Shown: piece after piece, positions 16,472 through 31,122 of the stretch
Position numbering within the stretch: the stretch's first letter is position 1
How the letters are laid out: the number at the start of each line of letters is the position of its first letter
Source of the DNA: a virus
Reading direction: 5' to 3' (one strand)
Virus record (IMG/VR): IMGVR_UViG_3300021961_000359
Coordinates: 1-32,435 of that record
Length of the DNA stretch: 32,435 bases
Translations under genes and position numbers: made by a program
Notes under the pieces: model-generated
Seen by the model: the letters and a program-made list of their open reading frames with translations, nothing else
Told to the model about the DNA's origin: nothing
The model's database searches: none

Positions 16472-16651
16472 TTATGACTTTGGTGGTTTTCTTCTTGCCA
16501 TAGGTTGTACTATGACGGCTTTTTTCCTTTTTAGATGTACGCCAGGTTCACCACCTTTTTCACCTGAACCAGCTATAGCACCTGTCGACACAACATTAAC
16601 AGGTCCTGCGGATCCACCCATATCTTCTCTTAATTTTTTGAAAGTTTTCAT
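16472..16651 (-). CDS. Small basic internal-head-protein candidate, 59 aa
   Basis: A 59-aa frame just too short for common ORF filters. It begins MKTFKKLREDMGGSAG, has a glycine-rich middle (TGAIAGSGEKGGEPGVHLK), and ends in a basic segment (KRKKAVIV, MARRKPPKS). Support for it being real: its ATG overlaps the upstream stop as ATGA, its stop leaves four bases to the next gene, and it fills an otherwise empty 180 bases. The start resembles the T4 capsid-targeting peptide MKTYQEFIAEA, with LRE before an acidic residue as a possible gp21-type cleavage site. I recall similar small proteins in marine T4-like phages. Confidence 0.78.
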   Translation of the reverse strand: MKTFKKLREDMGGSAGPVNVVSTGAIAGSGEKGGEPGVHLKRKKAVIVQPMARRKPPKS

Positions 16652-17034
16652 ATTTTTCTTAGTGTTTCTGCCACGTTCATATCTATGAGTATGTCGGAAG
16701 AAATGATATCTTTACCTCTTATACCTTTCACTTTATCTGGCATGTAGTTTAGATAAATTAAGAAAGTTTTTAAAACATCATAATCCGATTCATCAATTTT
16801 ATAGAATAATATTCTTGTGGCGGCATCTACTCCAAAAACATTATAAAGAAGAATTGTATGATTCAGTATCAATCTCTCTTTGAGAGTTTTGGTCACTTTA
16901 TATCGACGAAATAATCTTTTTAAATATTTAGTACGTTTAAGATCGCTTTCAAATTCACTTAGTATGCAATGTGGCGAGTTATACGCCTTCATTGCGTACA
17001 TTATAATATTGTCATCATTCAAATCTTCGAACAT
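16648..17034 (-). CDS. Conserved T4-like phage protein (DUF7207-like)
   Basis: A 128-aa helical protein beginning MFEDLNDDNIIMYAMKAYNS. The segments CILSEFESDLKRTKYLKRLFRRY and LKERLILNHTILLYNVFG match a family I know from marine T4-like phages, which I believe is DUF7207 (the number is from memory). No catalytic motif is visible. It follows a strong hairpin, has no clear ribosome site in the ten bases before its ATG, and is coupled to the 59-aa gene. Its position between virion genes suggests a late role. Confidence 0.7.
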   Translation of the reverse strand: MFEDLNDDNIIMYAMKAYNSPHCILSEFESDLKRTKYLKRLFRRYKVTKTLKERLILNHTILLYNVFGVDAATRILFYKIDESDYDVLKTFLIYLNYMPDKVKGIRGKDIISSDILIDMNVAETLRKI

Positions 17035-17041
17035 TATTTAG

Positions 17042-17073
17042 AAAGGAGAAGGTCATTTTATACCTTCTCCTTT
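17042..17073. terminator. Perfect 12-bp hairpin, probable terminator
   Basis: A perfect inverted repeat: arms AAAGGAGAAGGT and ACCTTCTCCTTT with an 8-base loop. It lies directly after the stop of the structural gene (17079), with the next ATG at 17034. Read on the minus strand the stem is followed by CTAAATAAT, so the U-tract is weak, though the arm itself ends in UUU. It probably stops or stabilises the abundant structural transcript. The 5' arm carries an SD-like GGAGAAGG that the stem would bury. Confidence 0.7.
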
Positions 17074-17078
17074 ATTTA

Positions 17079-17633
17079 CTATTCTATCACCGGTCCGCTG
17101 CCTGTCATACTACCAGCGGCAACGATTGTTTCATATTGTGTGCGATTTGCTCTTCCACCCATTGTGACCGTGATGGCCACATTACTATTTGTTACTGTAG
17201 TGCTTGGTGTTGTCAGATACAAACCGCTTGTGTTTAAAGTAATTGATGTAATTAATTTTGAACCATTTGTGACTATTCTGGCATTAGCTGTCGTTGAACC
17301 AGTTCCACCACCTGAAAATGTAACAAAAATATTTCCGTCTGGGCTGTATGCATTTGTATTAGCAGAGAGCGATAAAACCGGGCCCATACCCGCTTTTCTT
17401 TCTACCCAACCAGCATGTGCCATTTTACCTGCTGCTGATGTAACTTGTGTATTGGATGCCTCTTGTGTATCGACTCCGTAGACACCGACAGCCATACTAA
17501 AAGCTTGTGCAGTATTTGAGTTTGCGAAAATTACATTAGCATTTGCTCTTGTTGGTGCAAGTTTTAAATCTGCTGGTGTAAAAATTGGTACGCCAGTATT
17601 TGCATCTGTCATTGTCCAAAAAGCTGATGACAT
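17079..17633 (-). CDS. Virion structural protein of marine T4-like type
   Basis: A 184-aa protein rich in Ala, Thr, Gly, Ser and Asn, with a beta-sandwich look. The recognisable stretches are LAPTRANANVIFANSNTAQA, VGVYGVDTQE, HAGWVERKAGMGPVLSLSAN and SPDGNIFVTFSGGGTG. Proteins with these motifs occur in structural modules of marine T4-like phages; I do not know whether they decorate the head or another part. A strong AAGGAGAAG site and a late-like box precede it, and a hairpin follows, which fits high late expression. Its composition differs clearly from the lysine-rich neighbours. Confidence 0.78.
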   Translation of the reverse strand: MSSAFWTMTDANTGVPIFTPADLKLAPTRANANVIFANSNTAQAFSMAVGVYGVDTQEASNTQVTSAAGKMAHAGWVERKAGMGPVLSLSANTNAYSPDGNIFVTFSGGGTGSTTANARIVTNGSKLITSITLNTSGLYLTTPSTTVTNSNVAITVTMGGRANRTQYETIVAAGSMTGSGPVIE

Positions 17634-17663
17634 TTTTTCTTCTCCTTAAAAGAATCTATTTAC

Positions 17664-17671
17664 TATTTATT
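17664..17671 (-). promoter_or_regulatory. T4-late-like promoter box (AATAAATA)
   Basis: On the minus strand AATAAATA (seven of eight to the T4 late consensus) is followed directly by a second similar box GTAAATAG (17656-17663). Both lie in the 36-base gap before the structural gene, 23-38 bases from its ATG, ahead of a strong AAGGAG ribosome site. Context supports a late promoter; the AT-rich background limits confidence. Confidence 0.45.
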
Positions 17672-19736
17672 ATAGATTGGGTTTAGTGCCATTTGCACCG
17701 TTGAGCTTCGTTCTCACAACAGGATCAATTTCGATGGTGTCTCTATCTTTGCCTGTCATTGTTTTACCGCCTTTTAGAATGATCTTTGCATTGGGTCCTT
17801 TTTCACCACCTTTTTCTGATTTTTCCCAATCATATATTGTTTCTTTTTTTAAACCTTTTTTCTTATAAATGGCTTTAATCATTCTCGCTGATTTTGATTT
17901 TTCTTTTGCCATTTTAGATTCCATAGCTTTTACTGAATTGGTGGCTGATAAAGGTGAATCTTCTATACCGTAGATGCCCTCCTTTACTACCTCTTCATTT
18001 TTTACTTCATCTTTTTTATTCATAGAAGCAACGTAATCATCGTGCTGTTTTTTTAACTTTGCACTGAGTTCTTTGTAATATTTTTCTTTATCTTCTAAAG
18101 AAGAACCTGTCATCTTTTTATATCTTGCATTAATGGCTGCATAGCCAAACTTTTTTGCTTCTTCTACAGTTTCTTCGTTTGTTGCTCTCCAACCACCACC
18201 TTTAGATTTGTACCATTTAGAAGCCCAGCCATTTGCATATGCAGAAGGGTAAACGTCAAATTTTGATCTTGCTAATGATTTTGCTCTTGCCCAAAGTTTT
18301 GGATTTGTTGGCTTGTTCTTTTCATCAATCTGTTCAACTTCTTCGTTTTTAGGTACACAATCTGGTACCATTTTATTACCTTTTTTCTTCATACCAACTT
18401 GTTTATGTGTGTCCCAACAAGCTTCATCAACAACTTCTTCGTTTTTAGGTTTTTTGCCTGCTTTTTTCATTGCTATAGCTATTGCAGCCTGTTGTGCCCA
18501 GGTTGCCGCTTCACCAAGTTTACCTTTTCCAAAATTTGAAACATTAACTGGCTTTCCACCTTTACCTGGTCTATCTGCAACAGGATCATGCTTTCGTTTT
18601 GCTGCAACGGCGGCTGCTCTTTCTTTTTTGGATAGCTTTGCACGTTTTTCGTTTGACATACATTTAGGTTTTGGTTCACCTGGTTCACGGGCGCAGGGAC
18701 CGATGGCTTCACCTTTGCTGTTGATTCTTTTCCAACCACCTTCAGGATCAGTTTTACTGAACCATTTTCTTAAATCTTCTCTTGTTATATGTGCATCTGC
18801 ATCTTGATTATCAGGTTGCTTTTTTAATTCATCAATTTGTTCAACTTGTTCTTTTACTTTTTTAATACTAACAATTTGTTCGTAATGATCCATAGTGAGA
18901 ACACCTTCATGTCGAAGGTTAATTAAGTTCTCGACAATTCTATGTAGATCCATATCCGTCTTTGCATCTTCTCTAGCATATTCGACAATACGAATCATTA
19001 AAGGAATATCTAAAGTAACGGTATCTTTTTCGTCAACAGCCTCTTTGACTGGCTTCTTTTCTTCGTTCCAATCATCACCACGCTCGCCCATTCCTGAAGT
19101 TTCAGCTTTCATTCTTCTGTGCTTGAACAACTTATATTCACTTGAATGTGAATATTTGTTTTTCTGATTTCCATTCATCGATAGAGGATTCAAACCTTTT
19201 GCTTTGATATAAGACATTAGTGTGCCAGTTCCAGCTTCATTAACGGTTTCTTCCGCCACACCTTGCTTTTTTAAAATAGCAAGTGCGTCTTTTTGCATTT
19301 GTTTTACACTAATTTGCTTGGCTGGGATTTCTTTACCTTTAAAATAGTCGGAACCCTTTTTGTCTCTTGAACCATAGGTACTATGGCTTATTTTATCATC
19401 ACGACCAGGACTGGGTTGACTCTTATCCATTTCATCAATTTGTTCAACTTCTTCTTTTTGCTGCTGAATCAGTTTGACATGATCTCTTGCAAACTTTTTA
19501 AATTTATCTGTTCGTGCAAGATTCAGACGATCATTGAGTGAAATGGTTCTGGGGTCACGACCCATTGCTTTAATATATTTCCAAAGCACTTGTGTGTTGA
19601 CCTCATCCAAAGGAGCATGCTTTTTGGACCATGGCTCCATTGGATCAGTGTCTCCATTTGCCAGTTTTCCCATGACAGATTCTTTTTTAGCTTTTTTGAG
19701 TGCTTCTAAGAAAATCTGCTTTTTACGTTCACTCAT
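17670..19736 (-). CDS. Modular head protein with EEVEQIDE linkers, 688 aa
   Basis: A string of small lysine-rich modules joined by near-identical acidic linkers: EEVEQIDE at 95-102, EQVEQIDE at 296-303 and EEVEQIDE at 465-472. Looser forms lie near 162-168, 229-236, 432-439, 520-526 and 579-586. Two modules are paralogous (LWKYIKAMGRDP near 51-62 and LMSYIKAKGLNP near 173-184). Others are a helical unit (about 243-293), a Cys module (REDLRKWFSKTDPEGGWKR, CAREPGEPKPKC) and a DUF5872-like unit (LWARAKSLARSKFDVYPSAY, 481-500). The IDE of the linkers fits the T4 gp21 protease rule (I/L-x-E). Related proteins occur in marine T4-like phages. The likely role is an internal, DNA-associated head protein cut during maturation. 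Confidence 0.75.
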   Translation of the reverse strand: MSERKKQIFLEALKKAKKESVMGKLANGDTDPMEPWSKKHAPLDEVNTQVLWKYIKAMGRDPRTISLNDRLNLARTDKFKKFARDHVKLIQQQKEEVEQIDEMDKSQPSPGRDDKISHSTYGSRDKKGSDYFKGKEIPAKQISVKQMQKDALAILKKQGVAEETVNEAGTGTLMSYIKAKGLNPLSMNGNQKNKYSHSSEYKLFKHRRMKAETSGMGERGDDWNEEKKPVKEAVDEKDTVTLDIPLMIRIVEYAREDAKTDMDLHRIVENLINLRHEGVLTMDHYEQIVSIKKVKEQVEQIDELKKQPDNQDADAHITREDLRKWFSKTDPEGGWKRINSKGEAIGPCAREPGEPKPKCMSNEKRAKLSKKERAAAVAAKRKHDPVADRPGKGGKPVNVSNFGKGKLGEAATWAQQAAIAIAMKKAGKKPKNEEVVDEACWDTHKQVGMKKKGNKMVPDCVPKNEEVEQIDEKNKPTNPKLWARAKSLARSKFDVYPSAYANGWASKWYKSKGGGWRATNEETVEEAKKFGYAAINARYKKMTGSSLEDKEKYYKELSAKLKKQHDDYVASMNKKDEVKNEEVVKEGIYGIEDSPLSATNSVKAMESKMAKEKSKSARMIKAIYKKKGLKKETIYDWEKSEKGGEKGPNAKIILKGGKTMTGKDRDTIEIDPVVRTKLNGANGTKPNL

Positions 19737-19745
19737 GGTAAATCC

Positions 19746-20702
19746 TTATTTTCGTTCTTTTGCGGCTTTAGTTGCAGTTGCATACATAACCGATTTTGCT
19801 CTTTCACCATAACGAGATTTAAAACCTGCTAAACTTTTTTTCATGCCCTTGACAATACGCTCTTTCTCTGCTGTTTCTGGTTTGGTTAATGTACGTTCAT
19901 CAATTTGTTTCGTTTCTTCTTTGACATTGCCTGGCACATCCATCATAACCTTTTTCGATAAATTTGGATTGCTAGAACTTTTTTCACGACCTCTTAAAGT
20001 ATCAGTAACAGTTTTGTTAGGATCAACTTCTTCCTTTTCTACCTGTTTTGCACTTTGAGCTGAGCCTTTCACAAGTCTACCTTTTGCTTGAACAGCGGCT
20101 AATCGTGCAGCTTTATCACTATAACCAGGCATCAAACTTGTCATTGGAACTTTACCTTCAGGCGCTTTACGCTCATTTTCGGGATTATCGTAACCTTTAC
20201 CTTGAACTCTTTTACCATATGTTTCAGGTTTTTTTGCAGTAGCACCTTTTCGGCCAATTCCATAAGATGCTTTAAAACCTGGTTCTTTGGCTTCATCAAC
20301 TTGTTCTGTTTCTTCTTTCTTTAGTCCTTTATCTGGAGCCGCAGGTTTAGATGGTTGTGTTGCAGTTGGTGTTTTTGTAGGGCTCGTGCCAGTTCCATAT
20401 CGATCAGGGCTGGGTTTGGAAGTTCCATATCGCCCGATACGGTGCATTCGACTAAAGGGTCTACCTTCCGACAATTCCTCAGTTTCCTTATCATTCTGAT
20501 CCACTTGTTCTTTTTTCATGGCTTTCTTTTCGCCACGGAGAATTGCAAAGTCTTGTGCGTCGATTTTATTATTTTTATTTTTATCGATTTTGTGCTGCCC
20601 ACCTTTCAATTCTTCCATTTTAGCTTTTGTGTCAGCTTCAATAATCGTTTTGATAAGGTTTGCAATAGAATCCATTTTGGCAAATTTATTATTCGTAAAC
20701 AT
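19746..20702 (-). CDS. Modular head protein with EF-hand-like loop, 318 aa
   Basis: A companion of the 688-aa protein. Residues 11-23 end in IIEAD (IIE followed by A, a possible protease site). Residues 40-52 form an EF-hand-like calcium loop (D40-K-N-K-N-N-K-I-D-A-Q-D-F). Linkers of the same family recur: KEQVDQND (64-71), EETEQVDEA (130-138), EKEEVDPN (222-229) and EETKQIDE (262-269). Between them are Gly/Pro/Lys-rich stretches with RYGTSKPSPDRYGTGTSP. The C-terminal 40 residues (MKKSLAGFKSRYGERAKSV, then MYATATK) form a basic helix known from many marine phage virion proteins. GAGGT lies eight bases before the ATG. Confidence 0.75.
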   Translation of the reverse strand: MFTNNKFAKMDSIANLIKTIIEADTKAKMEELKGGQHKIDKNKNNKIDAQDFAILRGEKKAMKKEQVDQNDKETEELSEGRPFSRMHRIGRYGTSKPSPDRYGTGTSPTKTPTATQPSKPAAPDKGLKKEETEQVDEAKEPGFKASYGIGRKGATAKKPETYGKRVQGKGYDNPENERKAPEGKVPMTSLMPGYSDKAARLAAVQAKGRLVKGSAQSAKQVEKEEVDPNKTVTDTLRGREKSSSNPNLSKKVMMDVPGNVKEETKQIDERTLTKPETAEKERIVKGMKKSLAGFKSRYGERAKSVMYATATKAAKERK

Positions 20703-20705
20703 TTT

Positions 20706-21125
20706 TTATACCTCTGTCGTTTCTTTTAAAAATTTTTCCCATTCTGGTAAATCGGAACTGGCGTAAAGATATTGAGCAGCAAATTCTAAAAGCATTGGAT
20801 CATCTCTAAAATGACCTAAACCTCTGTTACAGTGGTTACACAACATACCCCTAACTTTACCTGTTTTATGGTCGTGATCTACAACTAACTTTTCTACATT
20901 ACCACATATTACGCATTCTTTAACTTCTGTTATTAGACTTTTTAATGTATCATCATCTATTGATTCTCTATAATTACCTCTTCTAGTTTCCGATCTATAT
21001 GTTGCTCTACATTTTCTACACCAACTATCGAAACCACTTTTAGTTTTGTTATGAGGTGGAAAATGCTCTTTATCTAAAGGTTTTTCCTGTTTACATTTTG
21101 TACATTGTTTATTTAACAATTCCAT
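20706..21125 (-). CDS. Endonuclease VII-like HNH nuclease
   Basis: A 139-aa protein. The core is CVICG ... [17 protein letters not shown] ... [12 protein letters not shown], the treble-clef HNH site of T4 endonuclease VII, with four cysteines as zinc ligands. The N-terminal third adds a second zinc-binding unit ([17 protein letters not shown]) absent from T4 gp49, and the long C-terminal dimer part of gp49 is missing. It may therefore be a homing-type or restriction-type relative rather than the true gp49 junction resolvase. It interrupts a run of internal head protein genes and overlaps the upstream gene by 13 bases. Confidence 0.85.
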
Positions 21126-21424
21126 TTCCTTAAAGACAATGCTTTTCTTGTCGGTCTACCTTTCTCATCTTTCATGGGACCAGGCATTCCTCCCATCCTG
21201 GCACAAAATGATTTGCGTCTTTTTGCAGCCTTTGACCCTGGTTTCAACTTTGATGGTTTTGTGGTAACTGCCATCGAAAGTTTTGAGCCTGGATTTTCTC
21301 GTCTATATGAAGCAATACCCTTTTTATTTAAGCCACCAGACTCTGATTTTCCTTCTTTTCTTTGCCAAGCCGGTGTAGCTTCTTCTAGACATTCTTCATT
21401 TATAAATTGTTTGAAACTTTTCAT
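21113..21424 (-). CDS. DUF6321-like basic head protein, 103 aa
   Basis: It begins [20 protein letters not shown]. The first ten residues align with the T4 internal-protein signal MKTYQEFIAE, with INE before E at the same cleavage position. The rest is strongly basic and matches a family I know as DUF6321 from phages and giant viruses: [39 protein letters not shown] and the conserved end SLRKWNC. A packaged DNA-binding protein is a reasonable inference. Its ATG overlaps the upstream stop as ATGA, with AAGAAG before it. Confidence 0.8.
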
Positions 21425-23313
21425 TTTTTCTTCTTTTTAGTTGGATTCGTTTCAATTTTATTTAATGTTTCTATGGGCTCTTTATTAGAAGGTCCATGTG
21501 CTGTGCCGGTTACTCCCATATCCACGCTCGGAGAATCTATTGCTTCTTTTCTAAAATTTTTGAACGATTTGCGTGTTACCTCTGCGGCACTGGTATATTT
21601 ATTTTCTTTTTGTTCTCTATATGTCACCATTCCCAAACCTGACATTGGATAAACTGTACCGGAACCTCTTGTATCATATTCTGGTGAGGTCCCAGGAGCT
21701 TTCATCACTTTACCTGCTTCGGAGTTGTTCGTTTTTTGTTTTTTTGCCCTGATTTTGTCGGCGTCTTGTTGGAACCTGGTTTCTTTGGCTTCTGGCTTTC
21801 TTTCGATGGTTGGAGAGGTTCCTTCAACGTAGGTTCTGAAGATGTAACTACTGTTGGAGGCAACGTCTCCGTCGGTAACGGAGTCGACTCTACCTTGTTT
21901 TCTGGTAAGCTGACAACTGGGGCAGATGTTGTCAAGTATGCGTTGGCCTTTCTTTCCTGATTGTTTACCAAAGAGTCTAGAGGATGCTTTTCCTCCTTTG
22001 GTGCAGGAGCAGGTTTGTTCTTTGGTAATAGAAGCATTGCGATTTGTTTTATTTTTTGAAACATAGTTTCCTCCAATTATGGCTTGTTCAAATAAATTAT
22101 CAATGGTTATTTTTTTATTTCTAACGAGCCATCCTTTAGAAATTTCATTTTCGATTTCAATATCAAAAAACCAGTTGATCATTTCATAAATGATTGTTAA
22201 ATCTTCTTCTTTATCTGCTTTTTCCAGTTCGGTAGCTTCATTCAAGTTAACTGAATTATCAAACTCCAAATATTTTGTGAAATTTTCTTTGAAAAATTCT
22301 GAAACGATTTGTGTCTTTTTCCATCTCTCGTATCTAACAGATTCTTCTAAAATTCTGGTGTGACTTTCATTTCTTCTTTTGGAAGAATCGTTGGAAGTGT
22401 TGACAAAAATCATCATCGTCTCGTAACCTAACTCTTCTAATTCTTTTTTTATTTCTAAAATAACGAACTGATCATTTGTTGTACCGTTGATTATTAGAGG
22501 GCTTCTATTTCTTATTGCCTCACGACGAGAATCGTTTGAATATTCATATAACTTGTGCTTGTCATTTAATATGTTTATTGCTAAATTTGTGTTAATTTCA
22601 ACGGCTCTTTGGTGTGGTACACACTCCCTAATGATAATATCTTTACCAGAACCTGGACCTCCAGCAACAAATATGGCTTTAAATAAACCATGGTTCACAT
22701 TTTCATGAATTCCCATTCCAGTTCTAACGTCACGAAATAATTCTCTAGCATGTTTTTCGGGAACATGAGCAGGAACGCCTTGCTTAAAAGAATTAAAATC
22801 GTTATTTTTTGCATGTTCACGCATTTTAGATGCAGACATTCCCTCCACACCCTCTGCATCCGGATCTCTTTGCCCAGCCGATTTAACTTCTATTTTCTTA
22901 AAATTAAACAATGCTCCTGGGTGAGTACCATTATATTGATGCAGTTTTTTTTCAAATTCATCAACACGGTCTGAACCAGCAACCATGATTAAATGGTCAT
23001 GCTCAGAATGGTAAAGTTTAGATGCATGTTGTAAAAACGTAGGTGATTCTTTACTTGAAGAATATATGTTAGTATTAGGAAAAAATCTTTTAGCGTGTTT
23101 TACTTTTTTCACCACATCTAAAGGATTCTTTTTCGAATCTGTTGAATGTGAAATTATTACATGATGAGGCGCATTGTAATCTTGAGCAATTTTTTTAACA
23201 TGATTTACAAGTTGTTCATGCCCAACGGTAGGAGGATTCATTCTACCGAAAGCCATGACAACAGGTCTTTCAGTTCTTTCGTTTTCTTCTACTTTTTCTA
23301 GAAAAGTTTTCAT
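21421..23313 (-). CDS. Nucleotidyltransferase-kinase, packaged-protein candidate
   Basis: A 630-aa multidomain protein. (1) A CTS-like start MKTFLEKVEE. (2) A cytidylyltransferase-fold domain, about 17-200, with T29-V-G-H32 after GRMNPP and an ISSTxxR-like SASKMR (160-165). (3) A P-loop kinase-like domain, about 210-350, with GGPGSGKD (218-225), where Asp replaces the usual Ser/Thr. (4) LNEA near 357-360, a possible gp21-type cut site. (5) A C-terminal region with a zinc-knuckle candidate (CSC 435-437, CPSC 464-467) and a conserved VYPMSGLGMVTYRE segment. The order resembles NadR/NMNAT-kinase fusions, but the substrate is unknown. Relatives occur in marine T4-like phages. Confidence 0.8.
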   Translation of the reverse strand: MKTFLEKVEENERTERPVVMAFGRMNPPTVGHEQLVNHVKKIAQDYNAPHHVIISHSTDSKKNPLDVVKKVKHAKRFFPNTNIYSSSKESPTFLQHASKLYHSEHDHLIMVAGSDRVDEFEKKLHQYNGTHPGALFNFKKIEVKSAGQRDPDAEGVEGMSASKMREHAKNNDFNSFKQGVPAHVPEKHARELFRDVRTGMGIHENVNHGLFKAIFVAGGPGSGKDIIIRECVPHQRAVEINTNLAINILNDKHKLYEYSNDSRREAIRNRSPLIINGTTNDQFVILEIKKELEELGYETMMIFVNTSNDSSKRRNESHTRILEESVRYERWKKTQIVSEFFKENFTKYLEFDNSVNLNEATELEKADKEEDLTIIYEMINWFFDIEIENEISKGWLVRNKKITIDNLFEQAIIGGNYVSKNKTNRNASITKEQTCSCTKGGKASSRLFGKQSGKKGQRILDNICPSCQLTRKQGRVDSVTDGDVASNSSYIFRTYVEGTSPTIERKPEAKETRFQQDADKIRAKKQKTNNSEAGKVMKAPGTSPEYDTRGSGTVYPMSGLGMVTYREQKENKYTSAAEVTRKSFKNFRKEAIDSPSVDMGVTGTAHGPSNKEPIETLNKIETNPTKKKKK

Positions 23314-24506
23314 ATGTTTCTTATTCCCTCAAAATTTCTTTTGGAGAACTCTTGTCTATTTACAAATTTATCTGTATCGTTTTTATGATGAAAAACATAT
23401 CCTTCAGGATTTGCATTTTCTCCAGCATGCTGATGCTGAAATTGTTGATGCTGATTCATAACGTTAATCAAAACATTTTTGGCTTTTTGGAGATGCCCAT
23501 GCATTTTAAATAGATTATTGTAATGTTTTTTATTTAATTCTATTTTATTTAATTCATTTTTTAGATCATCTTGTCTAGCTTTTTTATTCTTCTCAACCTT
23601 TAATTTATCTATTTCTTTATTTTTTTTAGTTTCCAGCCAATTTTTGAAGTTTTGGTGATTTGGCATCTCACCGCTTCTTACAGTATGATTCATATATGCT
23701 TCTAAGTGCCCACCTACGCCGTGATGATTGCTTGTTCCAGCATACATATCATCACCATGAGTATTATGAACTGCTTCAGCGGCAGCAATATGTTTATTAA
23801 ATTCGGCCCGTTCTTTTGGACCGAAATGAACTTTGGACGTATCCATCTGCGGATCAACGGTAAATACGTCTGGATGTTCATTAAAGTTTTCATGATCAAC
23901 TTGATGTGATGCGTTTAAGCTTCCTGAATTTTTACCCTCATATTTCAAGTGTGTCACTACACCTATTTGTGCCCTTTTTGCTTTTTTACCTAATTCGCCG
24001 TGTGCAGTGTAAGTTAAACCTGAAGGATTAGGATTAAAGGAAACACCACCTCCTTTAGAAGCTTTTTTATCTTCTGAAGAAAACATCATATCACCTTGAT
24101 AAACTCCTTGCTTTGGTGCAACTTTTGGTAAGTGTTTCAAAGCATGTTTGAGTTTTTCCACCAATCCAGGAGCATGTCCGTGATTATTTTCAATATCTTT
24201 AGGAGTGTAGTTTATTTTTGGAGTTTTATTGAATGCAGACTTTGAAGCGACAAAAAATTTACCATTGTCTGGATGATAGCCATAAACGATAGCTGGAGAT
24301 CCATCATATTTGGTAGTAAGTTCTGAAGATTTTTTTCCTGATGCAATATGTTCAGCAGCGGACCTGAGTGAGGAAATAGAACGTAAAGCACCCTTTTCTC
24401 CAGTTTGAAGGGCACGGTCTTCGACATGTGTTAGATGTTTAATTTGTCGGCTAGCGCCTTCTTCTGGATCTTCTTGTTCCAGTAAGAATTTGGCAAAAGA
24501 TAGCAT
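23310..24506 (-). CDS. Ligase-like nucleotidyltransferase (DUF6267-like)
   Basis: A 398-aa protein that starts MLSFAKFLLEQE, matching the T4 capsid-targeting pattern with LLE at the cut position. It then shows the motif series of covalent nucleotidyltransferases (DNA/RNA ligases): I K66-Y-D-G (TTKYDGSPAIVYG), III VYQGDMMF (136-142), IIIa IGVVTHLKYEG (181-191) and IV EGYVFHHKN (368-376). About 170 residues, largely coiled coil and His-rich, separate IIIa from IV. I match it to a phage family I know as DUF6267. It may seal or adenylylate nucleic acid, possibly after injection. GAGGAT precedes the ATG, and the stop overlaps the next start (ATGA). Confidence 0.75.
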   Translation of the reverse strand: MLSFAKFLLEQEDPEEGASRQIKHLTHVEDRALQTGEKGALRSISSLRSAAEHIASGKKSSELTTKYDGSPAIVYGYHPDNGKFFVASKSAFNKTPKINYTPKDIENNHGHAPGLVEKLKHALKHLPKVAPKQGVYQGDMMFSSEDKKASKGGGVSFNPNPSGLTYTAHGELGKKAKRAQIGVVTHLKYEGKNSGSLNASHQVDHENFNEHPDVFTVDPQMDTSKVHFGPKERAEFNKHIAAAEAVHNTHGDDMYAGTSNHHGVGGHLEAYMNHTVRSGEMPNHQNFKNWLETKKNKEIDKLKVEKNKKARQDDLKNELNKIELNKKHYNNLFKMHGHLQKAKNVLINVMNQHQQFQHQHAGENANPEGYVFHHKNDTDKFVNRQEFSKRNFEGIRNI

Positions 24507-24541: not shown

Positions 24542-24549
24542 TATTTAGT
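24542..24549 (-). promoter_or_regulatory. T4-late-like promoter box (ACTAAATA)
   Basis: On the minus strand ACTAAATA differs from the T4 late consensus at two positions. It lies at the junction between the glycan island and the head cluster, overlapping the upstream stop codon and 36-43 bases before the ligase-like ATG. It is the natural place for a promoter driving the head cluster. Confidence 0.4.
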
Positions 24550-25279
24550 AACCCCAGATTTTCTTATCTACCCATTTTTCCATATCATCTCGTATAATAG
24601 AGTGTTTTCCAATGTTATATTTGCCATTTTCAAAAGGATGATCTATGTCTATTCTTTCCACAGGTATTCCAAACATATTCAATTGAGCTTCCAACATTGC
24701 ATGCCCACAAAGTTGTACTCCTTTATTATAATGTTGTCGTAGGAAAAGATAGGTTGAAGAATAAATTTTCATTGTTTCAGGATCAGCTATTGCAAATTGG
24801 TCATTTAACAAAGCATTTGAATCTTCAGTATCTTTTGACACGTATACTTTACCTTTTTCAAGTTTTGAAAAATCTATTTGTTTATTCAAAGCAAAGTCAA
24901 ATCTACTCCGAATAACAAAGTCGTAAGATTTATTTAAAAACAATTCGGATAAAATACGAAAATGATCAGATTTGTGTATCGAATAAAACATCGATGTACA
25001 AAAATTGGCAGGATGAGAAGCGTTCGGAACTGTCAAATCCGAATTGACACTCCCTTCTAAGGGCTTATCAAAAAGACTGAAAATTGGAGAGTATATTGCT
25101 TTTATTTCATCATATATTCTCATTTGAACAAACATGTTATCGTTTTTCCATGAATGTACAAATGTGTCTACATCATACACACTAAGCAAATTTTTTCTTA
25201 TGTATTGATAACCTTGAAAATAACTTCTAGGCTGTCCGGACAGACATAGTGCGAGTTTCGGATACGAATTTTTCAACAT
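24545..25279 (-). CDS. Glycosyltransferase-like protein, paralogue 1
   Basis: A 244-aa protein with LALCLSGQPRSYFQGYQYIR near the start and YDFVIRSRFDFALN in the middle, followed by LLNDQFAIADPETMKIYSS. The R-x-R-x-D motif after a hydrophobic strand and the later NDQFAI segment recur in two other proteins of this island, so all three are one family. I know such proteins as putative glycosyltransferases of phage and bacterial surface-glycan loci. The start is either 25297 or 25279; neither has a strong ribosome site, and 25279 gives the usual spacing to the first strand. It overlaps the upstream gene by 53 bases. Confidence 0.65.
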   Translation of the reverse strand: MLKNSYPKLALCLSGQPRSYFQGYQYIRKNLLSVYDVDTFVHSWKNDNMFVQMRIYDEIKAIYSPIFSLFDKPLEGSVNSDLTVPNASHPANFCTSMFYSIHKSDHFRILSELFLNKSYDFVIRSRFDFALNKQIDFSKLEKGKVYVSKDTEDSNALLNDQFAIADPETMKIYSSTYLFLRQHYNKGVQLCGHAMLEAQLNMFGIPVERIDIDHPFENGKYNIGKHSIIRDDMEKWVDKKIWGY

Positions 25280-25706
25280 AATCAGTGCAAATCCCATAAA
25301 TTGTTACAGACTTAACATATTCCCAATAATCTTTATTAAACTCAGGTAAAACTGCAATTGAGTTTTTTGTTAGATGTTTTCCTGGGTATGTCCAGATAAA
25401 ATTTCCAGATGTTAAGGTAAAATCATCATTTTGATGCCAGAAGTATTCATAATTAAAAACGGAATCGTTCAATTTATAAAGTGCATCCAAATTTTTACAA
25501 TGTATCCACAATCCCTGTTTACCCAAAAAGCTTACAGGTATTTCATACTGTGGTTCGTCATGCCCAAGAAACCATTTATCATAAATTGCCCAAACGTCAA
25601 TTTCACAGTCGAAACCTTGTAGTAGGACCTTCTCTATTTCGTCTGGTTTATTTTCTTTATTTTTGTTTGGCCCATAAATCAGGCCTCTGTGTGATATAAT
25701 TTTCAT
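25227..25706 (-). CDS. GDPD-like phosphodiesterase domain
   Basis: A 159-aa protein with the spacing of a glycerophosphodiester phosphodiesterase barrel: H6-R-G (ISHRGL), E35-x-D37 (CEIDVW) and H49 (LGHDEP), then LWIHCKNLDALYKL and a terminal YGICTDYVEKF. It is shorter than typical GDPD enzymes (about 240 aa), so part of the barrel is missing or reduced. A start at 25706 is chosen because AAGAGA precedes it and it leaves two bases after the upstream stop. In glycan loci such proteins may trim or attach phosphodiester-linked groups. The family call is fairly firm, the substrate unknown. Confidence 0.72.
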   Translation of the reverse strand: MKIISHRGLIYGPNKNKENKPDEIEKVLLQGFDCEIDVWAIYDKWFLGHDEPQYEIPVSFLGKQGLWIHCKNLDALYKLNDSVFNYEYFWHQNDDFTLTSGNFIWTYPGKHLTKNSIAVLPEFNKDYWEYVKSVTIYGICTDYVEKFVSETRTMSVRTA

Positions 25707-25708
25707 TT

Positions 25709-26464
25709 TCAATCTCTTATTAAATGGTGATCTAAACACATATCCCCCACAGTTATTTCATTTTTAAATAAATGATATGATAGCAAAGTTTCTTGGTGAA
25801 AAAATAAATCATCCTCTAGAACATATTTTTCAATAAAGTCCACTAATGAACAAAAAACTTTCATTCCATAGAAATTTGTTATTGCAAGTTGATCGTTCAC
25901 AGGAATATTAGGTTTATCTAAACAATATCTTCCATTTGATGGCATTAAAATAGTATTGTCAACCCATTCATAATAATAATTGAAATCTATTGAATAATTC
26001 GTTATTCCGTCTATTCTAAATTTCATATAACAATCATAGTTTATATTAGACAATGTGGATAAGTCAAAAACATATTTTAAACCTAAAAATTGTTTTAGGC
26101 AAGAATCTATCAAATCTAATGTTTTACTTAGTTGGTCGGTTCCGTAAATATTTATTTTTTCATAAATTTTTCCGAGTAGATGTGGGCTTTTAATTAATTC
26201 TTTCGAAAGAAAGTTTGGCTCATCAATAAAAATAACTTTTTTTAAATTAAAATTTTTTGGTAATATTGTTGAAAATTTTTCATAGTCGAAATCATCTTGT
26301 GAGTTTACAAAACCAATTTTATCTTTTTTATGATATTTTTTCCAGAAGCAAAAATAAATATCGTACTCTACTTCGTGACCCGGAAAGATTATCCTATGAA
26401 AAAAATTATTGATTGTAAATTTAAAATTTGGTATTCCGGACGCCAACAGAGCTATTCTTTTCAT
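25709..26464 (-). CDS. Glycosyltransferase-like protein, paralogue 2
   Basis: A 251-aa protein beginning MKRIALLASGIPNFKF. It carries the same landmarks as its two neighbours: YDCYMKFRIDGITN (R-x-D motif) and PVNDQLAITNFYGMKVFCSL. It has diverged further at the N-terminus, where SGIPN replaces SGQPRSY, and it is richer in Phe, Ile and Asn. Its ATG overlaps the upstream stop as ATGA. The putative role is transfer of a sugar to a surface or virion glycan; donor and acceptor are unknown. Confidence 0.62.
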   Translation of the reverse strand: MKRIALLASGIPNFKFTINNFFHRIIFPGHEVEYDIYFCFWKKYHKKDKIGFVNSQDDFDYEKFSTILPKNFNLKKVIFIDEPNFLSKELIKSPHLLGKIYEKINIYGTDQLSKTLDLIDSCLKQFLGLKYVFDLSTLSNINYDCYMKFRIDGITNYSIDFNYYYEWVDNTILMPSNGRYCLDKPNIPVNDQLAITNFYGMKVFCSLVDFIEKYVLEDDLFFHQETLLSYHLFKNEITVGDMCLDHHLIRD

Positions 26465-27177
26465 TTTTGATACAATTCTTTTGGTTTATATTCACCTAAA
26501 GGTGTATGCATAATTGTTTTACTCACCATAAATTCTTCCCAAGGAAACCCTAGTCTTTTTATGAAATGTTCAGAAATAACATGTGGGCAAAGTAAGCCAG
26601 TTTCTCTATAAATTTGAGGAAGATGATGTAGCAATTTTGAAAAGAGACCTATTGTAAAGAAGTTTCCAACTTGTATCATATCAGATGTACCTTGACCTTT
26701 ATGATTTCTATAACCCATTGTGTAAAATTTATTACGGTCAAAATTAGGAAGTTCTTCGTTGAACACTAAATCTGGGCGCATTCTTATGACTAAATCATAT
26801 GTTTTTCCCGTTTTAAACATATAATCTTCCATCATCGCAACGCCACGACCCAATTTAAAAAACATAGAAATTATATTTTTTGGAACATGATAAAAATTTT
26901 CGAAATATTTTGATCTGTGTTCAAATAATTTTTCATAGTCTTCATAATGTTCTTTTCGAAGCATAGTCGGATTATAAACTTCTATCAGTTTATCAAAATT
27001 CACTTGTGGCGCATTTTTGACAACTCCATGTGAACTGTGAGGATCCCAATAAGCCTCATCATTCCATGTTTCTATGAATATGTCTGGATTATATCTATCA
27101 ACAAAGTGATGTTTAAAATTAGGATAAACTTTATCCCAGCATCTCATGTGCCCAGTTAAAACAACGGCAACATTCAT
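26461..27177 (-). CDS. Glycosyltransferase-like protein, paralogue 3
   Basis: A 238-aa protein, MNVAVVLTGHMRCWDKVYPN, with NPDIFIETWNDEAYW, YDLVIRMRPDLVFN and GTSDMIQVGNFFT, the same order of motifs as the two related genes downstream. The start at 27177 is supported by TAGGAG nine bases upstream. The frame stays open to an ATG at 27279 that overlaps the upstream stop as ATGA, which would add 34 residues with no counterpart in the paralogues. I take the short form as the protein and describe the extension separately. Confidence 0.66.
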   Translation of the reverse strand: MNVAVVLTGHMRCWDKVYPNFKHHFVDRYNPDIFIETWNDEAYWDPHSSHGVVKNAPQVNFDKLIEVYNPTMLRKEHYEDYEKLFEHRSKYFENFYHVPKNIISMFFKLGRGVAMMEDYMFKTGKTYDLVIRMRPDLVFNEELPNFDRNKFYTMGYRNHKGQGTSDMIQVGNFFTIGLFSKLLHHLPQIYRETGLLCPHVISEHFIKRLGFPWEEFMVSKTIMHTPLGEYKPKELYQK

Positions 27178-27275
27178 AATATTAACTCCTATTTTTTTTA
27201 TCACACAGAAACGTCTTTTGCCAATTCCTGTATCTTTGTTGTAAGTTGAAGTTTTATCTGCTTCAAAAGCAATTT
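27178..27275 (-). other. Possible relic of a GT4 glycosyltransferase start
   Basis: This 98-base stretch between two glycan genes is open in the frame of the downstream gene from an ATG at 27279 (ATGA overlap with the upstream stop). It reads MKIAFEADKTSTY, then DTGIGKRRFCVIKKIG. That resembles the beginning of GT-B glycosyltransferases (MKIAxDA ... TGIGRY). It may be the remains of a lost gene, or a true N-terminal extension. The similarity is weak and rests on pattern memory. Confidence 0.3.
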
Positions 27276-28658
27276 TCATTCTTTATAGTTATCAAGGAAA
27301 TAGTTTAAATCTTCTGGTGTCCCAATACCCCACATTTTTTCAATATTTTTAATTCTAATTTTTTTACCATCTTGAATCGCTTCATTGAAAACTGGGCAAA
27401 CATAAAATTCATTATTTACACGAATATTTTTTGAAATCATTTTTTCTGCATATTTAACATAATCGGAACCATATTTCCAATAATATATTCCTACCGTAGC
27501 CAAATTGCTAATTGGGCGTTTTTCAGCAACTTCTGACACGAATCCATCTTCACCTAGTTTTGCATATGACCACTTTGGATGAGTTGCTTCGAATGTGACG
27601 ATACCTCCATCAATAGAATCGGCGGTGAAAGCATACATACATTCATTGGAATTCCATTCAACAAACTGATCTGAATTTGCCATTACTAGAGGATGGTCGT
27701 TATCGATAAATTCTTTTGCTAACAGTGTCGTACATGCTGCACCTTCTGTAAGCCCATCTACTTGAACAATCTTACAATCAGGTGCCACTAAATTTAATAA
27801 GAATTTTAAATTGTATTTTTCATAATGTTCTTTCTGAACGATGAAAATATAATTTGCTTCAATGTTTAAATTTTCAACAACTACTTGAATCATTGGTTTT
27901 CCCCGAACTTCGATCAGAGGTTTAGGGAAAGTGTATCCGACTGAAGCAAATCTTGATCCTGCTCCTGCCATAGGAATCAGCACATTTAATTTAGTGTCTC
28001 TCCAAGGAGGGCTTTTTTTATTTTTACCTTCGATTGTTTGCATCATATCATTTAACCTTTTTAACATTCTGTCAGAGTTGACTTCTTGAGAGTTTTCAAC
28101 AGGCAGTAGGTGTGCCCCTGAGTCCATTGCACCTTGACGCCCAATATGACTATCTTCAATAATTATTGTATTTTTTGGTAATGCGTTCATGGCAGTCATG
28201 CACTTCCAATACATCTCAGGATAAGGTTTTGTTCGACTGACATCCTCATTACTTACATAGTAATCCACTAAATCAATGACGCCTATGCTTAACAATGCCA
28301 ATTTAACTGTTTCACGTATTGAATTTGATGCTACTGCAATTTTATACCCTTTCTTTTTTATTTCATAAAAAAATGACGAAAGAAAGTAGTTAGGCTTGAA
28401 TCCTCGTATCAAGCTGAACGTTGCTTCTTGTTTATCTTTCCAAACTTGATCATAGAATTCTAACGGAAGACCTTTTCTTTCCGTTAACATTTTAAGTTTT
28501 TTTGTTGTACTTAAACCATCATACAAACTTAAGTGTTCATCTCTTGAAATGACATATTTTGCATCAATTTTTTGCAAAGCTTTGTTTAATGCATCATAGT
28601 GCAATTCTCTTGAATCTATTAAGACTCCATCTAAATCGAAAATTATTAATTTATTCAT
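27276..28658 (-). CDS. HAD phosphatase-sugar nucleotidyltransferase fusion
   Basis: A 460-aa bifunctional protein. Residues 1-210 are a HAD-IA hydrolase: D8-L-D10-G (IIFDLDGVLIDS), VASNSIR as motif II, the K of SRTKPYPEMY and acidic IIIEDSHIG as motif IV. From about 225 an NTP-transferase domain begins with LIPMAGAGSRF, FPKPLIEVRGKPM, then VMANSDQF and GIYYWKYGSDY. It should dephosphorylate a sugar phosphate and activate a sugar-1-phosphate, giving a nucleotide sugar for the transferases around it. The gene overlaps htrL-like by eight bases (ATGAATAA). The domain calls are firm, the sugar unknown. Confidence 0.85.
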   Translation of the reverse strand: MNKLIIFDLDGVLIDSRELHYDALNKALQKIDAKYVISRDEHLSLYDGLSTTKKLKMLTERKGLPLEFYDQVWKDKQEATFSLIRGFKPNYFLSSFFYEIKKKGYKIAVASNSIRETVKLALLSIGVIDLVDYYVSNEDVSRTKPYPEMYWKCMTAMNALPKNTIIIEDSHIGRQGAMDSGAHLLPVENSQEVNSDRMLKRLNDMMQTIEGKNKKSPPWRDTKLNVLIPMAGAGSRFASVGYTFPKPLIEVRGKPMIQVVVENLNIEANYIFIVQKEHYEKYNLKFLLNLVAPDCKIVQVDGLTEGAACTTLLAKEFIDNDHPLVMANSDQFVEWNSNECMYAFTADSIDGGIVTFEATHPKWSYAKLGEDGFVSEVAEKRPISNLATVGIYYWKYGSDYVKYAEKMISKNIRVNNEFYVCPVFNEAIQDGKKIRIKNIEKMWGIGTPEDLNYFLDNYKE

Positions 28659-29481
28659 GTTTATTAAATTTCCTTAATATCGATCGAACATCTTCGATTG
28701 GTGCGTCCAATGGCATTTTATGCAATTCAAACATTTTTGGTTCTTTGAAGTATGACATTAGAAGTAATCCCTGATCATCATCGACAAGCCCATTATCCAT
28801 CAATGTAATAAGTGATCTCTCCATGTATTCTTTTAATTTTTTCCATTCTTGTCTTTGACCAACAAAAACACCACCTATAATATAAACAAGGTTGTTAAGT
28901 ACAGCAATTTGAACTTGTTCCATCGATCGATTGATATCAGGATCTCTATAATTAAATAAATGCATTTTTCCAGGCGTAAAATCATATTCCCATGTCTTTG
29001 ATTCAGGTATGTGTGTTGAATCTCTACAATAACCAAAATCAATCCATGCAGCAAAATCATTTGTTACTAAGCCTTTCTCAAATGCATCATAAACAAAGAA
29101 TGCTTTTAGAGAAGTTATGCCCACATAATCTTTTGACCAATATTCTGGGTTCCTTACTTCATAAGGATTAATTCTGGATGCAAAATCTGGAAGGGTTTGT
29201 ATAGCTGAGATTTCGTTTCTAAGTTTTTCATGTATAGTAAAATAATCGTATTCTACTACTTTTACTTTCGGGGAAATGGATGCTATCTTTCGTGATAGTT
29301 CTTTTGATGTATAAACAATTATTTCTGCATCCATTTCACACATTCGTGAGAAGTGATCGAGATATTTGTCTACTGATCTTTGAAGATAGTGTGGGAGAGG
29401 GCCACCATTTTTTTGAACGCTTGTCGACCAGTCACCTCTTCCTATATCATAGAAAGCGGTAACAAGAGTTATTTTACTCAT
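28651..29481 (-). CDS. HtrL/YibB family protein
   Basis: A 276-aa protein matching the HtrL/YibB family: ITLVTAFYDIGRGDW at the start, YLQRSVDKYLDHFSRMCEM, WSKDYVGITSLKAFFVYDAF, and AAWIDFGYCRD with the acidic pair typical of the family. Members lie in lipopolysaccharide core gene clusters and are thought to be GT-A-like transferases. Here the gene sits between a GT-A-like gene and the HAD-nucleotidyltransferase, which fits a glycan pathway. GAGG lies seven bases before the ATG. Confidence 0.82.
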   Translation of the reverse strand: MSKITLVTAFYDIGRGDWSTSVQKNGGPLPHYLQRSVDKYLDHFSRMCEMDAEIIVYTSKELSRKIASISPKVKVVEYDYFTIHEKLRNEISAIQTLPDFASRINPYEVRNPEYWSKDYVGITSLKAFFVYDAFEKGLVTNDFAAWIDFGYCRDSTHIPESKTWEYDFTPGKMHLFNYRDPDINRSMEQVQIAVLNNLVYIIGGVFVGQRQEWKKLKEYMERSLITLMDNGLVDDDQGLLLMSYFKEPKMFELHKMPLDAPIEDVRSILRKFNKHE

Positions 29482-29503
29482 ATCAAAACCTCATGGTTAT
29501 AAC

Positions 29504-30388
29504 TTATGATTTATAGATAAAATATTTAGGTGAAGTTCCTGTATTCGTATCTTTTGTTAAATTCACATCATATTTTTTCATGACATATTCCATCCATTGT
29601 GGAACTCTATCATATTGGTGTACAATAGTAAATTCTTCACCAAATTCATTTTTAACTTTACCATCTTCGAAGATCGGTCTACCTTCTTTCAAAAACGGTC
29701 CAAATTCTTCTAACTGGTCAGGTTTGTTGGTGACATGTGCATTAATAGCCCAAGCATGTCTCAACTGTTTAATCTGAATAGTTTCTTTAAAGGGATGAAA
29801 TGCCAGCAGCATATTGTATGCGGCTTGATCGGCAACCCAGTCTGGGCGATTTAGTGACATTTGAAATAAATGAAAACACAAGTCTCTTACTAAATGAACA
29901 TGCCCAGCTAATATGCCAACATTACAAACTAGGTTATTTTTAACTTGTTCATACCAATAATTACCAAAATTTTTAATTATGTTTTCACGATTCCATTTCT
30001 CATCTTTTATGCTAATAGCTTCACTGGCACCTATCATTTTCAAATGAAATTCTTTTTCCAAGTAGTCTACCGGATTTTTTTGAAAAATAACATCTCTAAC
30101 ATCAGTGGAAACTACATAACGATAAGTATTACCTTTTGTTTTTAGATATTCGTAAATATGAATGAAACGCAACATATGAATCATCATATTATTTTTATCA
30201 TTAACTTTTACGACCTCAATACCTTCACTCACGAGAGTTTGGCAAATTTGATCGGAAGCATTTATAGCTATTAAAACAATATCACCTTTGAAATTAGTTT
30301 CTTTAATTGAATATACCCAAGGTTTCAGCACGTTAAAATCATTGTAATTGGAGAAAGCTCCTATAATTAAATCTTTTTTATCTTCCAT
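29504..30388 (-). CDS. GT-A-like glycosyltransferase, 294 aa
   Basis: It starts MEDKKDLIIGAFSNYNDF. The pattern LKPWVYSIKETNFKGDIVLI, then YRYVVSTDVRDVIFQKNP (95-99 as the D-x-x-D metal site) and later PDWVADQAAYNMLL, is that of small GT-A transferases that act on glycans of surface proteins or lipids. Two adjacent ATGs (30391, 30388) follow GGAG. The second has the better spacing and overlaps the upstream stop by one base (TGATG). Confidence 0.7.
   Translation of the reverse strand: MEDKKDLIIGAFSNYNDFNVLKPWVYSIKETNFKGDIVLIAINASDQICQTLVSEGIEVVKVNDKNNMMIHMLRFIHIYEYLKTKGNTYRYVVSTDVRDVIFQKNPVDYLEKEFHLKMIGASEAISIKDEKWNRENIIKNFGNYWYEQVKNNLVCNVGILAGHVHLVRDLCFHLFQMSLNRPDWVADQAAYNMLLAFHPFKETIQIKQLRHAWAINAHVTNKPDQLEEFGPFLKEGRPIFEDGKVKNEFGEEFTIVHQYDRVPQWMEYVMKKYDVNLTKDTNTGTSPKYFIYKS
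29508..29515 (-). promoter_or_regulatory. T4-late-like promoter box (TATAAATC)
   Basis: On the minus strand TATAAATC matches the T4 late consensus at seven of eight positions. It overlaps the stop of the GT-A-like gene and lies 27-34 bases before the HtrL/YibB ATG. It may be an internal late promoter of the glycan island. One codon of the upstream gene forms part of the box, so chance is possible. Confidence 0.35.
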
Positions 30389-31122
30389 CATTTTCTCCAA
30401 GGGAATTTTCCATTCATTTTCCCATTCATTTTTTCATTACCATTTTTGAAAAAATCAGCTTGAACAGAGTCAGCTCTGCTTGCGACTCTATAGTTTAACG
30501 TATAAAGCCCATTCGTGTCAACCTGTTCGTGTGGCACTTGTGTGAAAAGTAGATGTGAAAGGAGACGATCAACTTCTGGTTGCTCTTGTGGATTTCTTGC
30601 TCTTCGATACCAGCCAGGAGAAAATCTAAGGGCGATACCTTTTGGTATCATAAAACAACCGACATCGACAAAATGATCGTTTAATATAGACTTCCATTTA
30701 CCTAATGACTCACAATCATCATTGCAGATATATTGACCCGATTGGTCGACAATTTTTCTTAATGAATAAGACCACATTTTAGTATGTGCGATTTCAACTA
30801 GACTTTCGATATGATTTGGTTCGTACCAGTTATCTTGGTCAAGAAAACAGAGATATTCACCTTCTGCAATATAAGTCATGGCGCCGTAAATTCTGTGCCC
30901 GTTATATTGTTCATAACCTGTAATTTGCGGTAAAGTTATAAGACTGTAGCGTTTACAGTCTAACGAGTCTAGAACTTCTCTTGTTTGTTTTTCTCTATCT
31001 TTGCCATCAATGACTACAAGATATTGGATATTTTCGTAGGTTTGATTTTCAACAGATAAGATTGCATCCGCTAATTGTTTGCTGCCTGTTGTAGGCGTTA
31101 TGATTGTCACTAATGGTTTCAT
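30388..31122 (-). CDS. Glycosyltransferase family 2
   Basis: A 244-aa GT2 enzyme: VTIITPTTGSKQLADAILSV as nucleotide-binding start, YLVVIDGKDRE, and D95-x-D97 in LCFLDQDNWYEP as the metal/nucleotide-sugar site. It has no membrane spans, so it acts in the cytoplasm. The C-terminus holds a threefold short repeat (NEKMNGKMNGKF) from a 12-base tandem unit near 30406-30440. As the first transferase of the island after the late promoter at 31907, it probably begins or extends the glycan. AAGGACA lies upstream of the ATG. Confidence 0.88.
   Translation of the reverse strand: MKPLVTIITPTTGSKQLADAILSVENQTYENIQYLVVIDGKDREKQTREVLDSLDCKRYSLITLPQITGYEQYNGHRIYGAMTYIAEGEYLCFLDQDNWYEPNHIESLVEIAHTKMWSYSLRKIVDQSGQYICNDDCESLGKWKSILNDHFVDVGCFMIPKGIALRFSPGWYRRARNPQEQPEVDRLLSHLLFTQVPHEQVDTNGLYTLNYRVASRADSVQADFFKNGNEKMNGKMNGKFPWRK

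Follow-up and report, generated by a model that had tools for sequence, protein, structure and literature searches.

Candidate T4-type capsid-targeting starts on predicted head cargo in a fragment of a T4-like phage

We analysed one entire 32-kilobase (kb) fragment of a T4-like phage (IMG/VR record IMGVR_UViG_3300021961_000359; 32,435 nucleotides, hereafter the window). Its cargo locus is a run of genes, several of whose products begin like the capsid-targeting start of T4 internal proteins. Our favoured reading, to which we assign a probability of about 0.78, is that this T4-type tag loads cargo into the phage head, followed by gp21-type trimming and probable injection, and that the locus additionally encodes modular core proteins. 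Predicted head packaging by the N-terminal tag is strongly supported for the DUF6267 and DUF6321 proteins: the functional positions of the tag are conserved, its pattern is specific across whole genomes, a late-promoter motif is present and tagged proteins occur in published virion proteomes of related phages. For a 59-residue protein of the locus, the sequence makes head packaging likely. The tag itself is known from T4; what is new is to extend it to cargo that consists of enzymes and to core proteins built from modules.

In the proposed mechanism, the tag of about ten residues on the DUF6267, DUF6321 and 59-residue proteins would bind the prohead core via F4 and an aromatic residue at position 7, and the I/L-x-E next in the tag would serve as the site for a gp21-type prohead protease. 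Cargo would enter the prohead before DNA packaging, be trimmed after residue 9 or 10, a cut that we infer, and stay in the mature head, probably to be injected along with the DNA. The neighbouring 318- and 688-residue proteins would be core proteins, with the same protease freeing several small proteins per chain at I/L-x-E.

Tag positions and their conservation

Residues 1 to 10 of T4 IPIII are enough for packaging, with positions 4 and 7 responsible for targeting and positions 8 and 10 for processing (PMC9026906). The same source confirms that gp21 cleaves after L/I-x-E, as assumed in an initial annotation of this DNA. That annotation also gave MKTYQEFIAE as the start of T4 internal proteins, which is correct for ipII and ipIII; ipI starts MKTFKEF and lacks E10. 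From the IPIII positions we built the pattern ^M..[FY]..[FLYMIV][ILVFM].E, which was set before the S-CREM2 and S-SCSM1 genomes were retrieved. Shuffling the residues after the start gave a chance expectation of ~0.07-0.2 matches per genome (170-280 genes). In the T4 genome the pattern found ipII, ipIII and gene 61.1 only, and in the window it gave two full matches, DUF6267 and DUF6321, both in the cargo locus. All gene-like, ATG-started matches in three relatives (G001, G002 and G003) likewise fell in the cargo locus; a further short frame in G001, which starts with TTG, is probably noise.

Four N-termini had been singled out beforehand as sharing M-[KL]-[ST]-F and a hydrophobic-x-E near residue 9-10. 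All four were located on the minus strand with plausible upstream sequence and carry both features, the latter as LLE (DUF6267), INE (DUF6321) and VEE (nucleotidyltransferase-kinase) at residues 8-10 and as LRE at residues 7-9 of the 59-residue protein. F4 is found in all four and in every distinct orthologue bar one register-shifted DUF6321. The DUF6267 and DUF6321 starts agree with T4 IPIII at 4/4 functional positions (4, 7, 8 and 10). Alignment of N-termini in related phages, which had been suggested as a check, bears this out for both families. In case of DUF6267, F4, F/Y7, L/I8 and E10 each occur in 34/34 distinct starts, position 9 takes eight different residues, positions 5 and 6 also vary, and M1, F4 and E10 do not change even between members that share as little as 29% identity. 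The predicted structure is disordered over residues 1-23, with the fold beginning after them. DUF6321 has F at position 7 and keeps I/L8 and E10 in 12/13 distinct starts, the remaining one being shifted by one; its stand-alone forms keep the tag. In the family of the 59-residue protein, position 7 is F or L and some relatives carry MLE or ILE at 8-10 (e.g. MKTFKQFMLED). The window protein has one residue fewer, leaving LRE↓D (arrows mark candidate cut sites).

The nucleotidyltransferase-kinase (630 residues) is a weak member of this set by sequence and is not counted as a proven tag. F4 is present in 33/33 orthologues and V/I/L-x-E is mostly kept, position 7 is K in 31/33 and E10 is found in only 25/33. 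The modelled N-terminal helix (residues 2-12) is moderately ordered (predicted local distance difference test ~76) and adjoins a strand at 17-24. Further, phrog_455 matches the DUF6267 protein and part of the nucleotidyltransferase-kinase, so the two may work together, possibly as a complex. An untagged protein in this lineage, whose start belongs to the fold and which acts in the cell or rides with other cargo, is thus a serious contender that falls only slightly short of even odds. Against it stand the invariance of F4 and T4 IPI, which also lacks E10, so that a missing E10 does not exclude targeting. Tagged homologues further occur in cyanophage virions. Cytidylyltransferases were reported in virions of S-SM1 (MKKFSAFLNE; PMC3037559), S-SZBM1 (MRFRQFIIE↓A, which falls one residue short of the pattern; PMC9146016), S-SCSM1 (MKSFLQFLKE; PMC9602691) and S-CREM2. 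The original proposal that all four window proteins are packaged hence keeps its force for DUF6267 and DUF6321, remains likely for the 59-residue protein and, for the nucleotidyltransferase-kinase, draws on these homologues more than on its own poor tag.

Modular neighbours and candidate protease sites

The 318- and 688-residue proteins, both rich in lysine and glutamate, are built from short modules that are found again in relatives. Ahead of the KNxPTNP...KFDVYPSAYAN module, the distinct junctions show E at P1 in 23/23 and I/L at P3 in 22/23 with P2 free, so that the gp21 rule is recovered from these junctions. Candidate cuts in the 688-residue protein fall after residues 102, 167, 236, 303, 438, 472, 526 and 586. 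The EF-hand-like LKGxQHKID module has a site within 12 residues in 78% of cases, compared with 30% at random positions. The DUF6321 domain itself follows either the tag or an internal [VIL]-x-E. After the tag (19 distinct contexts) the site ends 3-4 residues before a conserved W, and in the 37 contexts with the internal element it ends 3-5 residues before that W. In relatives the domain is alternatively fused behind EEVEQIDE↓; other small forms begin directly as MAKTPAW. In gp160 of S-CREM2, a virion protein, modules of the 688-residue family stand behind a start resembling that of S-SCSM1 gene 97. The earlier and more hesitant suggestion that the 318-residue protein is packaged and trimmed near residue 22 has gained strength, as this protein is modular like its 688-residue neighbour, has I/L-x-E at its junctions and has relatives that are virion proteins.

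Bulk enrichment of [VIL]-x-E was considered as proof of cutting and dropped as too weak; junction analysis was used instead, and the cut-site claim consequently rests on junction position. The weak bulk signal, together with frequent acidic residues at P5, P7 and P8, would also fit EEVEQIDE repeats that are interaction motifs or linkers rather than protease sites. We regard this as unlikely, since P3 and P1 are fixed with P2 free, the spacing between site and module start is constant and DUF6321 has either the tag or an EEVEQIDE-type element at the same junction.

Virion proteomes, gene-start specificity and late expression

In S-CREM2, the pattern matches the annotated starts of exactly four genes, gp6 (S-adenosylmethionine (SAM) hydrolase, MKDFDSFLEE), gp14 (APH/ChoK-like kinase with a GTG start, VKRFDAFLTE), gp136 (MQTFSMFFSE) and gp154 (cytidylyltransferase, MKNFSSFLTE). 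All four are within the 52-protein virion list (PMC10665884, Table 3), an overlap with a hypergeometric P of 0.003, or 0.0004 without genes annotated as structural. Near misses among the virion proteins are gp13 (MKDLHSFLTE) and the Cas9-like gp12. The S-SCSM1 record flags seven genes of the syntenic cluster as virion proteins. For pooled strict matches, 6/7 are in virions (P ~0.0005). Since the same tag is found on enzymes of cyanophage virions, it is probably a predictor of the phage proteins that enter the host with the DNA. An in-frame tag sought by upstream re-start for S-SCSM1 gene 97 and S-SZBM1 gene 134 was not found.

Three additional observations concern these proteomes. In S-CREM2 gp12 (L131:7704-10313), LRFASFMAE↓A lies ~20 residues inside the annotated protein, and the real start may be further downstream. 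The virion-flagged 69-residue product of S-SCSM1 gene 93 (L130:11517-11726) carries a tag-like TFKEFLEYIE at its C-terminus. The virion protein S-CREM2 gp156 (L129:26013-26726) shows, as judged by eye, a polymerase-beta-like nucleotidyltransferase signature (GG...YSDIDLHL).

Specificity to gene starts was analysed by scanning 2.9 million viral contigs with a codon pattern for MK[ST]FKxF[ILFM]xE, in which degenerate codons admit a few neighbouring residues. Among the matches listed, 87 motifs in 80 loci, an in-frame stop or contig end lies within 47 codons upstream in 87/87 and within 25 codons in 80, which places every one of these motifs at a gene start. A codon-permuted control gave 20 matches in the entire viral collection, three of them gene-start-like. 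Bacterial and archaeal genomes (257 Gb) yielded 114 matches; 27 of the 80 examined were gene-start-like and the others were short frames or lay inside genes. Tagged viral genes encode DUF6267, SAM lyase (PF23780), cytidylyltransferases, an HD-domain protein, DUF5661, DUF5662 and 61.1-like proteins. A T4-type major capsid gene was present on 8/20 source contigs tested, most of the contigs being fragments. One 14-kb contig (L290:5915-9422) carries five clustered tagged genes, an apparent cargo island with one DUF5662 and another gene with a possibly ADP-ribosyltransferase-like start. Tagged SAM lyase-like proteins (PF23780) were seen at L255:1441-2151 and similar loci; if injected, they would be a ready-made anti-restriction measure.

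The motif HTAAATA, which we take to resemble the T4 late promoter element, lies within 80 nucleotides upstream of DUF6267 in 75/78 orthologues (shuffle mean 7.1) and upstream of the 184-residue gene in 12/12; before most other locus genes we found no clear enrichment. Expression of the cargo locus hence looks late, as judged from this motif.

Several observations, besides K7 of the nucleotidyltransferase-kinase, weigh against tag-directed loading and trimming. S-SCSM1 gene 30 is a strict pattern match without a virion flag, and the homologous cytidylyltransferases, like the relatives in general, do not count as independent samples; the transferases, counted once, bring the pooled P to ~0.01. 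A lone match per genome, as in S-SCSM1, S-SM1, S-SM2 and G002, is not significant by itself. Liquid chromatography-mass spectrometry of CsCl bands may include contaminants, as the S-CREM2 authors state (PMC10665884), and the published virion mass spectrometry covers only homologues in other phages. With regard to cutting, P1 is E in only 54/90 DUF6321 contexts, many of the others being small forms that start at the domain. The [VIL]-x-E total is modestly raised in the 688-residue protein (15 vs 9.5, P=0.04) and not significantly raised in the 318-residue protein.

The virion entry that the motif directs might run through the tail, the portal or the outer head and not via the scaffold core and gp21. 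The cited proteomes do not split head from tail, which leaves room for this; we nonetheless consider it improbable in view of the identity with the T4 internal-protein tag, cut site included, and of the I/L-x-E rule recurring at module junctions and in gp23 N-termini (LNE↓A or LNE↓T in relatives where T4 has LTE↓A). Less probable still is that the starts play no part in packaging and are ordinary N-terminal helices or the outcome of a bias at translation starts (Lys-rich second codons). Many proteins begin with MK, the helix of the kinase protein is modelled as moderately ordered and a few bacterial proteins match by chance, including prepilin-like leaders. Yet the codon-permuted control has far fewer matches, most of them away from true gene starts, conservation is confined to the T4 functional positions, the DUF6267 start is disordered in the model and all S-CREM2 pattern matches are virion proteins.

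Beyond this locus, the balance tips slightly towards a general address code in T4-like phages of cyanobacteria and lakes. It would send enzymes (SAM lyase, NMNAT-like transferases, kinases, a Cas9-like nuclease and DUF6267) into the head and would make the product of gene 61.1 a head protein that had been overlooked; the phages would also employ module polyproteins that the prohead protease separates. If true, a ten-residue sequence rule would predict the injected proteome of a very large phage group. The tag offers an explanation for the immediate delivery, as infection begins, of enzymes that serve counter-defence or metabolism and turns hypothetical genes (DUF6267, DUF6321 and 61.1) into predicted head cargo. 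It also hints at wrong annotated start codons, e.g. in the S-CREM2 Cas9-like gene. The cyanophage proteome reports describe virion enzymes without telling cargo from contamination; because the cut site of the tag is defined, this question becomes directly testable.

Cargo enzymes, gene 61.1 and the locus

The DUF6267 protein had been described as ligase-like. Its KxDG, QGD, EGxV and KxVxR columns are invariant in 34 sequences (K66, D68, G69; G138, D139; E368, G369, V371; K380), and from the sequence we read them as the covalent nucleotidyltransferase (ligase) motifs I (KxDG), G[DE], EGxV and V. A Foldseek search with the predicted structure gave no significant match; the best-probability hits were RNA ligases and NAD+-ligase adenylation domains (probability 0.2-0.33, E ~0.2-0.4), so the label is upheld by the motifs and receives weak support from the fold. 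The name nucleotidyltransferase-kinase was borne out: Foldseek matches of the 630-residue model to NadD-type adenylyltransferases and bacterial polynucleotide kinase (E ~1e-5 to 1e-3) support a predicted NadD/NMNAT-like domain joined to a polynucleotide-kinase-like P-loop domain. What such cargo does as infection begins is a matter of guesswork; it might repair nucleic acids or restore NAD+.

T4 gene 61.1 (L124:18966-19130, 54 residues) has a perfect tag (MKTFKEFIKED) and adjoins gp61; matches to it occur in 1179 phage records. The 59-residue protein is likely its counterpart by sequence comparison, being close in length; hhalign gives 96.9% over 31 columns, mostly the tag itself, and the two differ in PHROG. 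In the literature searched, with partial coverage, we found no virion evidence for gene 61.1. As the gene of a laboratory phage, it offers a clean prediction.

The shared elements with T4 IPI, IPII and IPIII are the ten-residue start with F/Y4, F7, I/L8 and E10 (IPII and IPIII) and the gp21-type cutting rule (PMC9026906). The cargo differs in being mostly enzymes or conserved domains (DUF6267, DUF6321), encoded between gp41 and gp61 in freshwater and Kyanoviridae-like phages. T4 Alt, a packaged ADP-ribosyltransferase, is likewise an enzyme in the head that is trimmed by gp21 (PMC9026906), although its start (MELITELFDE) and enzyme class differ. Internal head proteins of SPN3US and phiKZ are cleaved behind a short motif whose last residue is E (PMC9026906), in giant phages with a diverged protease and motif. 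The virion cytidylyltransferase/NMNAT and SAM hydrolase proteins of S-SM1, S-SCSM1, S-SZBM1 and S-CREM2 are tagged, with the transferase close to gp61 and nrdA as in the window; in the portions consulted, their authors report virion presence and no packaging signal. Literature on capsid targeting that also mentions cyanophages came down to a T4 review.

The proteins of the cargo locus were named by Pfam and PHROGs searches, and all its genes are on the minus strand (Table 1).

Table 1. Genes, tags and other features of the cargo locus in window coordinates
Feature	Position	Strand	Evidence
CTAAATA late-promoter-like motif, ~36 nucleotides before DUF6267	24542..24548	-	HTAAATA pattern
DUF6267 protein, 398 residues	23310..24506	-	Pfam PF19782 E 6e-94, 315.9 bits vs cut-off 27
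Capsid-targeting-like start of DUF6267, MLSFAKFLLE↓Q	24477..24506	-	T4 IPIII positions 4, 7, 8, 10 matched
Nucleotidyltransferase + P-loop kinase, 630 residues (cytidylyltransferase-like)	21421..23313	-	phrog_3041/395; Foldseek
Weak tag of nucleotidyltransferase-kinase, MKTFLEKVEE	23284..23313	-	F4 kept; K7, E10 poor
DUF6321 protein, 103 residues	21113..21424	-	PF19846 E 1.5e-22
Capsid-targeting-like start of DUF6321	21395..21424	-	All T4 positions matched; INE at 8-10
Endonuclease VII-like gene, 139 residues, without tag, same gene run	20706..21125	-	PF02945 E 1e-18
318-residue modular protein, EF-hand-like module	19746..20702	-	[VIL]xE precedes modules
IIE↓A candidate cut site, residues 20-22 of 318-residue protein	20637..20645	-	Relatives ILE↓A, INE↓A, IAE↓A there
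688-residue modular protein, EEVEQIDE-type junctions	17670..19736	-	Junction sites; virion homologue S-CREM2 gp160
184-residue protein	17079..17633	-	Counterpart by gene order in S-SCSM1 and S-SZBM1 is a virion protein
DUF7207 protein, without tag	16648..17034	-	PF23837 E 4e-39
59-residue protein, T4 gene 61.1-like	16472..16651	-	phrog_3286; hhalign
Shortened tag of 59-residue protein, MKTFKKLRE↓D	16622..16651	-	One residue fewer than family consensus MKTFKQFMLED

In annotated cyanophages the locus is flanked by gp41 helicase/uvsX on one side and gp61/nrdA/nrdB on the other. In G002, a nearly complete relative, the genes for protease and capsid lie at 142.6-146.0 kb and the cargo locus at ~96-103 kb, about 40 kb from gp21-gp23. 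The locus is therefore set among replication genes and is not the head-gene cluster that its earlier label implied. A gp21-type prohead protease (S77, PF03420) was found in 5/10 larger relatives, and gp23 is present in larger relatives too; a search of the window for the S77 protease found none, because the window is a fragment.

Outside the cargo locus, judged by eye, a run of glycosyltransferase-like and sugar-nucleotide-like genes lies upstream (24545-31122), and a small GIY-YIG-like gene is found close to nrdB (7261-7677).

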